Shown piece by piece: positions 48,820 through 53,908 of a stretch of DNA of 64,000 bases (position 1 is its first letter; every line of letters begins with the position of its first letter). The notes under the pieces were generated by a model. It saw only the letters and a program-made list of their open reading frames with translations. It made no database searches and was not told the DNA's origin. The stretch is taken from contig NZ_CP134951.1 of the NCBI RefSeq assembly GCF_032116555.1, positions 124,001 to 188,000 on the forward strand, written 5' to 3'. A program made the position numbers and the translations under genes. The DNA comes from Halobaculum sp. XH14 (GTDB taxonomy: Archaea; Halobacteriota; Halobacteria; Halobacteriales; Haloferacaceae).

Positions 48820-49017
48820 TCAGACGTCGCCGTTGACGACCGCCGCGACCTCGGTCCGGTCGAACAGCCACTCCTCCTCGGGGATCTCCGGATAGTGCTC
48901 GCCGTCCTCGTACCCCGGCCGCTCGCCGAACCGGTCCGGGTGGAGCTGTTTCGCGCCCGTCTCGATCCGGAAGCGGTTCATGATCGGCCCCCGGTACCGC
49001 ATGCCGACGGCGTACAC
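48820..49017 (-). CDS. Small protein downstream of the flavoprotein gene
   Basis: Up to 65 residues from a GTG at 49017; ATG codons at 49002 and 48981 are alternative starts. The core RFRIETGAKQLHPDRFGERPGYEDGEHYPEIPEEEWLFDR is acidic with several aromatic residues and looks like a real protein. No family is recognised. It follows the flavoprotein stop by 42 bases on the same strand and is likely co-transcribed, so it may share its iron-linked control. Confidence 0.5.
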   Translation of the reverse strand: MYAVGMRYRGPIMNRFRIETGAKQLHPDRFGERPGYEDGEHYPEIPEEEWLFDRTEVAAVVNGDV

Positions 49018-49059
49018 GCGGTCCCCCTGGACCGCGCCGAAAGAAACGAGGCCCTTTCG

Positions 49060-50106
49060 TTACTCCGCCGCGTCCGCCGGGAGCGAGTCGGCGTACGTCC
49101 GGATCCTGTCGTCGGCGACGACCTCGAGCAGCAGGTCGTCCGGCAGGTGCTCGGCGAGCCGGCGCTTGCCGTCCTCGGCCCGCCCCTCGATCGTCTCCTG
49201 GTCGAGGTAGGCGTCGAGGCGGCGGTCGATCTCCCGCTCGCAGATCCGGTCGTACGGCTCCTCGGAGATGTCCACGCCGTCTGGGGCCTGCTCGGCGGCC
49301 CACTCGCGCCAGTGCTCGCGGACGCTCCCCTCGTCGTCGATCTCGCTCCGGCGGCGGAGCCAGTCCCAGTAGCCGTCGACCGGGTCCCAGTAGCCCTGCT
49401 CGCGCCGGCGGTCGCGGAGCAGTTCGCGCGCCACGCTGGCCCCGTGGCCGGCGGCGACGATGGCCTGGTCGGCCGCGCCCGCCATCGGCCCGGCGACGTA
49501 GAGCCCCTCGATCGGCGTCCGTCCGTCGTCGTCCGGGTACTCGCCGTCGAAGTGCTCGTGCTCCTCGCCGCCGTGCTCGTGCGTCTCGAACATCGCCGCC
49601 TCGTCGTCGAGCGGGCGCAGGTAGTCGGCGTCGTACTTCGTCGTCGCCACGACCGCCTCGGCCCGGACCGTCCGGCCCTCCTGGGTCTCGACGAGGAAGC
49701 CGCCCTCGTCCGCGCGCTCGACCCGCTCGACGAGGTCCGGGACGACCTCGCCGCCCGACTCGGCGACCTGGGCCTGGGCCAGGTCGGTGAACGTCCCGAC
49801 GTCGATGCCGGCGGGGAAGCCGAGGTAGTTCTCCAGGTACGCACAGCGGGCCAGCGAGGAGTTCCCGCGGTCGAACACGAGCGTCTCCAGCCCGTAGCGC
49901 GCGGCGAACACCGCCGCCGAACAGCCCGTCGGCCCGCCGCCGACGACGACCACGTCCGCGGACGCCTCGGACCCGTCCACGTCGGTCTGCTCGCCCGTGC
50001 TCCCCGCGGACGTCTCTGCCCCGTTCTCTCCGGTCGACTCGGCCCCGTCCGCGTCGCTCACGCCGACCACGCTCCCGGCCCCGCGATCCCGGAGGACGTC
50101 CGGCAC
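49060..50106 (-). CDS. Thioredoxin-reductase-like FAD protein without the redox cysteine pair
   Basis: 348 residues from a GTG at 50106; a second GTG at 50061 (SDADGAEST) is equally plausible because the first 50 residues are low-complexity acid. The FAD motif is VVVVGGGPTGCSAAVFAARYG, with ARCAYLENYLGFPAG and a second FAD element TPIEGLYVAGPMAGAADQAIVAAGHG. The CxxC and the NADPH-binding domain of thioredoxin reductases are missing; about 110 residues of helical, Trp-rich sequence follow instead. Electron donor and acceptor are unknown. An iron-regulator-like box lies 29-42 bases upstream. Confidence 0.8.
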   Translation of the reverse strand: MPDVLRDRGAGSVVGVSDADGAESTGENGAETSAGSTGEQTDVDGSEASADVVVVGGGPTGCSAAVFAARYGLETLVFDRGNSSLARCAYLENYLGFPAGIDVGTFTDLAQAQVAESGGEVVPDLVERVERADEGGFLVETQEGRTVRAEAVVATTKYDADYLRPLDDEAAMFETHEHGGEEHEHFDGEYPDDDGRTPIEGLYVAGPMAGAADQAIVAAGHGASVARELLRDRRREQGYWDPVDGYWDWLRRRSEIDDEGSVREHWREWAAEQAPDGVDISEEPYDRICEREIDRRLDAYLDQETIEGRAEDGKRRLAEHLPDDLLLEVVADDRIRTYADSLPADAAE

Positions 50107-50134
50107 CGCCGGCTCGTTCGGTTCGTCATGTGGA

Positions 50135-50148
50135 TTAGGCTCGCCTAA
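50135..50148. promoter_or_regulatory. DtxR/SirR/Idr-type iron-regulator box
   Basis: TTAGGC-TC-GCCTAA is a perfect palindrome matching the core of the DtxR-family consensus (TTAGG...CCTAA). AGGCTAA follows at once, giving a possible third half-site. It lies 29 bases before the GTG of the flavoprotein gene, where it would cover the promoter. Confidence 0.7.
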
Positions 50149-50399
50149 AGGCTAATAACGGTTTTCGTGTCGGCCGGCCGGGTCGGTCGGACACGTCGGA
50201 CTGTCTCATCTATTCGGTTTAAGTGTGACACTCTCTCACGGACCGTTGGGTAAGCCCGGTTGACTGTCGGACTCGCCCACGCGGCCCCAGCGGGAGGGGA
50301 GCGCCCGTGGCGACACGGGCGCGATTTCCGTGCGACCGGTCGACGAGAGTTCCCGGGTTCGTGCCGCGGCGCGCACCCGTCCTACCGGGGAACTTATCA
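50149..50399. other. Rest of the flavoprotein / ABC-2 divergent intergenic region
   Basis: About 250 bases with no convincing gene. TTCGGTTTAAG at about 50212-50222 is AT-rich but points at no near start codon. A short GTGTGACACTCTCTCAC stretch follows. No repeat or RNA fold was recognised. Confidence 0.35.
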
Positions 50400-53412: not shown

Positions 53413-53908
53413 GTGACGACCGGCTCGAAAGCCCCCGACTGGCTACGCTCCCGCGGCACGCTCTGTGCTCCTCGCGCTCCCTCCGGTCGCGCTGTGGTGC
53501 TTGAGGCGCCGGGGTTCGCGTAGCCAGCCGACCCTTTCAGTCCCACCCACCGCACCTCGCCCTCCCCAGCCTCCTGCGCTCCTCGCCTTCGGCTGCGGTG
53601 CTCGTCCCTCGCACGAGCGGCCGCGCGCCACGTAGCCCGTCCAGCCGAGTGCGGTCGGCGCGCGTGTCGGCGAGCCCCGCAGGGGCGAGCAGACGCGCGC
53701 GAGGGGTGAGCGAGGAGCGGAGCGACGAGCGAATCGGCTGGGGAGGCGTGTGGCTGTGCGGTGCGGTCGTGGTGGGTGGGACTGAAAGGGGCCGGCGCTC
53801 TCGGGGACGGCGGACGACGCAAGCACCACAGCGCGAGCGGAGCGAGCGCGAGGAGCGCAGCGAGGCCCCCGACCCGAGAGCGCCGGGGGCTTTCGAGGCG
53901 TGCGTCAC
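53413..53908. repeat. Imperfect inverted repeat of about 500 bp, gene-free
   Basis: The two halves mirror each other about a centre near 53660. Perfect paired blocks, all centred within a few bases of that point, are: 53424-53437 with 53884-53897 (14 bases), 53487-53502 with 53821-53836 (16), 53532-53549 with 53773-53790 (18, containing TTTCAGTCCCACC), and 53561-53570 with 53737-53746 (10). GTGAC and GTCAC close the ends. Frames through it give arginine/serine-rich nonsense. The inner part is built of short GCGAG-type strings. It could be a miniature mobile element, a structured RNA or a chromosome-organising site. Confidence 0.7.

Follow-up and report, generated by a model that had tools for sequence, protein, structure and literature searches.

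The locus described here is probably the remnant of an iron-repressed operon for ferric-siderophore uptake, and its flavoprotein would be a cytoplasmic ferric-siderophore reductase built on the FAD half of thioredoxin reductase (TrxR). We hold this reading with modest confidence. The locus lies in a 64,000-nucleotide stretch of Halobaculum sp. XH14 (the window), on a 196-kb contig (C3) of a genome of 3 contigs and 3.68 Mb. It carries an iron box, a promoter of the same layout as in related loci, a leader ORF that overlaps the flavoprotein start and a truncated substrate-binding protein (SBP) gene; relatives of the flavoprotein belong to siderophore-uptake operons. The strongest new points are this operon membership, the near-absence of known reductases from Halobacteria and the recurrent loss of the operon's first gene, with a leader kept in its place.

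In the mechanism that we propose, a DtxR-family repressor would, when iron is sufficient, block transcription by binding TTAGGCGAGCCTAA, which lies between a TATA-like element and the point where a leaderless mRNA would begin; iron starvation would lift this block. Translation would begin at a 23-codon leader ORF, which stands in for the lost binding protein at the operon head, and ribosomes would then start again at the GTG of the flavoprotein gene, which overlaps the leader stop. The FAD would take electrons from a donor outside the protein, either ferredoxin or NAD(P)H directly, and pass them to the Fe(III) of an imported siderophore so that Fe(II) is released. The flavoprotein could still be useful after truncation of the neighboring SBP because it would act inside the cell on the cargo of any importer. 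Other SBPs and a FecCD-type permease with boxes are encoded elsewhere in the genome.

The iron box and its promoter

The sequence-only reading of this DNA had proposed a perfect DtxR/Idr-type box before the flavoprotein gene, and this was borne out. TTAGGCTCGCCTAA is found with zero mismatches at 50135-50148 as a perfect palindrome (TTAGGC-TC-GCCTAA), and the exact pattern TTAGGNNNNCCTAA occurs at 15 places in the genome versus 1 for the reversed pattern, which is far above chance. Mismatch-tolerant scans of the window alone were uninformative: with up to 3 mismatches there were 2 matches (one place, both strands) versus a shuffle mean of 1.12, and with up to 2 mismatches to TTAGGNNNNCCTAA there was 1 match versus a shuffle mean of 2.86. 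Seven of the 15 genomic boxes stand before siderophore-type ABC SBPs, 2 before flavoproteins of the window's kind and 1 lies 31-34 nt before a FecCD-type permease; the remaining 5 are elsewhere in the genome. At C1:2075966-2076006, two perfect boxes (L007 and L008) lie 27 bp apart between divergent genes that encode neither SBP, permease nor flavoprotein, and these are possible further members of the iron regulon.

Whether the box is kept upstream of orthologs, a check proposed with the same reading, was answered in related genomes. The 3-kb regions preceding 67 related genes, 198,608 bases in total, contain the box 83 times, versus 1 occurrence of the reversed pattern and none of each of seven other palindromes; the box is thus conserved before the orthologs or their operons. 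The genome also encodes DtxR-family regulators, as the DtxR-type profile PF01325 gave 9 matches, 4 of them over the cut-off. With a TTAGG-N4-CCTAA core enriched over controls, a place in the promoters of iron-uptake genes in its own and related genomes and a regulator of the right family, the box can be classed as a putative DtxR-type (FerR/Idr-like) operator. The DtxR consensus is given as TTAGGTTAGCCTAACCTAA, of 19 bases (PMC7762939), and a 'ferR regulon signal' is placed before haloarchaeal fhu genes (Leyn and Rodionov 2015, as cited in PMC11349517). The window box resembles the DtxR/IdeR-type operators and the ferR signal, as these two sources present them, in being a TTAGG...CCTAA palindrome at siderophore-uptake promoters. 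Unlike DtxR/IdeR operators, the haloarchaeal box precedes the start codon of leaderless-looking genes by 3-7 nt, and a second copy often lies 36 bp away.

The promoter reads on the minus strand. A BRE-like CGAAAA (50162-50167) is followed by a TATA-like TTATTA (50153-50158), the box, 5 nt and the leader ATG (50127-50129). We aligned 106 distinct promoters, the window's and those of related loci, in which a perfect box is followed by a start codon after 3-6 nt. Their columns favor C-G-A-A-A at -18 to -14 and are T-rich at -10 to -7 before the box, and the window's CGAAAA falls in the same column as the former. Likewise, 64 of the 112 full-length SBP genes that lie on the plus strand of the loci have an in-frame start 3-7 nt downstream of a perfect box. 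The second box, 36 bp upstream and with up to 2 mismatches, is present in 52 of the 106 promoters and is lacking in the window, which has 10 mismatches there.

A third half-site had also been noticed beside the box. GGCTAA is present at 50150-50155, but its proposed part in the operator was rejected: it is complete in 1 of the 106 promoters, the window's own, it overlaps the TATA-like TTATTA, and its resemblance to a half-site is coincidental. In the 19-base DtxR consensus, as shown in PMC7762939, the third half-site has the opposite orientation.

The box is palindromic and lies in an intergenic region shared with divergently transcribed genes for an ABC exporter (plus strand, from 50423), and could on these grounds be thought to regulate the exporter and not the flavoprotein. 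We consider this highly improbable. The box is 5 nt from the leader ATG but about 275 nt from the exporter start, and the BRE- and TATA-like elements face the minus strand. Moreover, Halobaculum halophilum keeps the box with its flavoprotein gene, while the gene upstream is a different one in the same direction.

A flavoprotein with the FAD half of thioredoxin reductase

The flavoprotein gene (49060-50061, minus strand) encodes 333 residues, in which profiles, alignment and structure prediction indicate a TrxR-type FAD domain and a helical C-terminal domain. Its start is most likely the GTG at 50061, which overlaps the leader stop; this codon was preferred over an alternative GTG at 50106 because the -1 overlap matches that of relatives. 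The ATG at 50129 was rejected as the flavoprotein start, being out of frame and opening an ORF that ends after 23 codons.

The matches in Pfam and NCBIfam are mainly to the FAD half of thioredoxin reductase. The profile matches end after this half, and 171-183 residues aligned in structure to chains of about 300 residues, so that the NADPH domain is absent, and CxxC was found in none of 50 aligned rows of the family. The earlier description of a thioredoxin-reductase-like protein without CxxC or NADPH domain therefore stands. The protein has the FAD domain of low-Mr thioredoxin reductases but neither their CxxC active site nor their NADPH-binding domain, and it differs in the same way from TrxR-like FNR enzymes and IruO, which combine a NAD(P)H domain with a TrxR-like FAD domain. 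Its fold, predicted to be FAD-only, would place it with proteins like TTHA0370.

The predicted structure (mean pLDDT 85.5, pTM 0.82) is nearest to TTHA0370 of Thermus thermophilus (2cvj; Foldseek E 7e-14), which is the best sequence match as well (E 1.5e-23). The structural alignment with 2cvj gave Z 23.9 and an rmsd of 1.9 Å over 178 aligned residues with 35% identity, a Z rank that counts as a tie because other TrxRs score within about 1. TTHA0370 (2cvj, 2ywl), annotated as thioredoxin reductase-related, likewise consists of the TrxR FAD half without the NADPH domain; unlike the flavoprotein, it has 180 residues, no C-terminal helical domain and no cysteine at the position of C73. A literature search returned no function study of TTHA0370, and in it we recognised no functional study of the flavoprotein family, which is no proof of absence.

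R72, C73, A74, N78, Y79, G81, F82 and P83 are invariant in the 50 rows. This RCA..xNYxGFP stretch, with its invariant cysteine, is one that we take to lie by the flavin in thioredoxin reductase. The C-terminal 112 residues are predicted to be helical (pLDDT 84.2, pTM 0.59). They matched nothing in Pfam at E <= 0.1 or in the PDB at E <= 0.001 (best E 4.1), and their best Z against 36 chains was 4.6 over 50 residues; these results speak neither for nor against a new fold. Metal binding by a His-rich motif was considered and dropped, as positions 161, 163, 168 and 170 are His in 36, 41, 35 and 33 of the 50 rows. Near these positions F171 is invariant, and G165, E166, D172 and Y175 are nearly so.

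These features also bear on what the protein might do other than reduce iron. It could be an enzyme induced by iron starvation that alters the siderophore or its breakdown product, as an oxidase, in a monooxygenase-like manner or by thiol chemistry. The fold matches DepH and HlmI, which are dithiol oxidases, as well; C73 is invariant in all 50 rows; and the operon context shows a link to siderophore use only. However, these oxidases generally need CxxC, which is missing in every one of the 50 rows, and the family accompanies genes of uptake (SBP, permease and ATPase). We regard such an activity as unlikely. Less likely again is a role as electron carrier or redox partner to another protein, such as a ferredoxin-linked reductase, the permease complex or a step of Fe-S repair, that does not touch the siderophore. 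The absent NADPH domain, the conserved helical domain and the tight coupling with SBP and permease genes would suit this role, but no partner reductase recurs in the neighborhoods, which were searched for SBP, permease, ATPase, HEAT-repeat and flavoprotein genes only.

Uptake operons and the candidate reductase

Relatives of the flavoprotein were examined at 67 loci in named genomes; more were present on plasmids, of which nine were taken, and neighbors were called with profiles built from annotated plasmid genes. An SBP or FecCD permease lies within 0.5 kb of the flavoprotein gene at 63 of the 67 loci, and the other four (L025, L028, L041 and L078) all have the box. A perfect box is present within 3 kb upstream at 56 loci, and every locus has either the box or one of these neighbors. 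A common order is box, SBP, flavoprotein, permease and ATPase, with matches of the permease to FecCD and of the SBP to PF01497. At 43 of 47 places where the flavoprotein follows the SBP, the distance between the SBP stop and the flavoprotein start is -11 to +6 nt; L027, L044, L051 and L063 are the exceptions. At six loci (L092, L095, L097, L100, L030 and L055), the boxed SBP or flavoprotein gene is immediately preceded by a gene for a HEAT-repeat protein of about 335 aa. L034, L056, L089 and L028 have an additional flavoprotein gene or a shorter match to the flavoprotein nearby, so the family has been duplicated or split there.

Of 242 Halobacteria genomes, 157 encode the flavoprotein family (E <= 1e-50) and 186 the SBP family (E <= 1e-40); 155 have both, 2 only the flavoprotein, 31 only the SBP and 54 neither, counts that share ancestry. 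Among 294 genomes of the phylum, all 32 matches fell inside the window's own order. The sequence-only reading had pointed to an iron-regulated redox protein not yet described. We infer iron regulation with good support, because the box is conserved before orthologs or their operons and the partners are siderophore-uptake genes; in the literature searched, 'not yet described' applies to the function only.

According to PMC7407949, iron must be reduced from Fe(III) to leave a siderophore, and the genes for siderophore export, import and reduction in Haloferax volcanii are unknown. Two families of cytoplasmic ferric-siderophore reductase, SIP and FSR, are named in PMC11965169. Their Pfam models, positive in E. 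coli and C. glutamicum controls, gave 1 marginal match (23.5 bits, cut-off 23) and 0 matches, respectively, in the 242 Halobacteria genomes. SIP and FSR (FhuF), as portrayed in PMC11965169, perform the job proposed here for the flavoprotein, but the families are unrelated to it: neither the FAD-binding PF08021 (SIP) nor the C-terminal 2Fe-2S domain PF11575 (FSR/FhuF) is among its 13 Pfam matches at E <= 0.01. A precedent is IruO, the TrxR-like enzyme of S. aureus, which is reported to reduce hydroxamate siderophores (PMC10294844). According to the same source, IruO and other TrxR-like FNR reductases of Firmicutes share a TrxR-like FAD fold and iron regulation; they have a NAD(P)H domain, whereas the haloarchaeal family has none. 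With the known families near-absent and IruO as precedent, a redox flavoprotein fixed in an uptake operon is therefore the natural candidate for the missing reductase, and the family offers one that is both specific and widespread. In the 31 of 186 SBP-bearing genomes without the flavoprotein, another route for freeing iron must exist, a point against the reductase reading.

The family may also constitute a third, haloarchaeal class of cytoplasmic ferric-siderophore reductase, with an invariant cysteine and with a helical domain that would serve a donor such as ferredoxin. Operons that lost their first SBP gene, as happened repeatedly, would keep the promoter and first codons of that gene as a translated leader ORF that solely ferries ribosomes to the start of the flavoprotein. 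We advance this extension tentatively and give it a little less than an even chance. An expression study of Haloferax mediterranei lists E6P09_02485, an 'NAD(P)/FAD-dependent oxidoreductase', with a log2FC of -4.06 in denitrifying cells, repressed together with siderophore genes (PMC11218638, Table 2). This gene, whose number adjoins those of an iron permease and an ATPase, may belong to the flavoprotein family. In that source SirR is suggested as a possible regulator.

Loss of the binding protein and the leader ORF

The small ORF behind the flavoprotein gene (48820-49035, minus strand) had been taken for a small unknown protein, which it is not. In tblastn, the SBP of H. halophilum (NZ_CP058530.1) matched it with 78.6% identity over 70 aa, corresponding to residues 344-413 of 414. 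The ORF is thus a C-terminal fragment, of about 70 residues and a stop, of a siderophore-type ABC SBP, and it has neither the signal nor the box of a complete one. An intact SBP gene comes next after the flavoprotein gene in H. halophilum. The flanking MaoC-like and GRP-type transporter genes stand in the same order in both genomes (88% and 87% identity), so the two places correspond. The window follows the intergenic region of H. halophilum up to the start of the box and jumps from there to about codon 344 of the SBP, and 49036-49059 (minus strand) is what is left of the promoter of the lost gene, its box gone. This fits one deletion that removed the box and the first ~343 SBP codons.

The flavoprotein has diverged more than its surroundings, with 60% identity to that of H. 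halophilum as opposed to 87-88% for the two flanking genes. This lower conservation counts against the reductase reading, as does the lack of an NADPH domain. Differences between the two flavoprotein genes fall at 108 third positions and at 56 and 66 of the other positions in 314 codons, an excess that fits purifying selection, though not strong.

With its SBP truncated, the window copy might be a decaying leftover without function, the more so as a chromosomal paralog at C1:2538680 has a box, a 31-aa leader and an intact boxed SBP. Yet the window copy has an intact reading frame, and its FAD motifs, promoter, box and start overlap are intact too; its terminal branch (0.22) is also shorter than the one leading to the H. 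halophilum copy (0.47). We regard decay as a doubtful explanation.

The leader ORF (50058-50129, minus strand) has 23 codons and a TGA; its ATG stands 5 nt behind the box and its stop overlaps the flavoprotein GTG. The leader of H. halophilum has the same length and the same overlap. Conservation as a peptide was not supported in this comparison, as 8 of 23 residues are identical between the two and the codon positions differ at 13, 7 and 11 sites. By script, 77 places (the window and 76 others) were classed as 47 SBP-flavoprotein, 29 box-flavoprotein and 1 other. We collected 28 leaders, from the window, the chromosomal paralog and 26 loci (L044 and L077 included, as well as L029 through its one-mismatch box). 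The leader ends within 12 nt of the flavoprotein start in 26 of the 28, in 15 of them by a -1 overlap, versus 6 of 126 ORFs that begin at other start codons in these regions. In L035 and L077, which do not follow this pattern, SBP fragments are still present between leader and flavoprotein. At L091, positions 1-120 of the 408 of the SBP model are kept, and at L025, L041, L078 and L089 the box runs directly into the flavoprotein gene.

A quick tree of the 77 flavoproteins requires 11 changes between the SBP-first and leader states, a count that does not tell gain from loss. Loss of the SBP at the operon head is favored because partial SBPs remain. Judging from these gene arrangements, such a loss would usually leave a short leader ORF that ends at the flavoprotein start. 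The leader is probably a vestige of the SBP signal in 9 of 25 cases (L097, L065, L088, L062, L029 and four close Haloferax), whose scores as SBP signal peptides exceed those of all 200 shuffles; this likeness was not supported for the leaders of the window (183 of 200 shuffles scored as high), H. halophilum and the chromosomal paralog. Termination-reinitiation has been tested for 9 gene pairs in H. volcanii (PMC6728339). The leaders may represent a natural series, with at least 11 changes on the tree, of an operon that loses its first gene while the second is still translated.

Elsewhere in the window, a perfect 20-nt inverted pair (GGTGGGTGGGACTGAAAGGG) at 53532-53551 and 53771-53790 flanks a short region with more inverted repeats. 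The core of the repeat, GGTGGGACTGAAAGGG, occurs 64 times in the genome versus 0 for the reversed sequence, in several cases as inverted pairs spaced by about 250-330 bp, and the pair looks like a dispersed repeat element.
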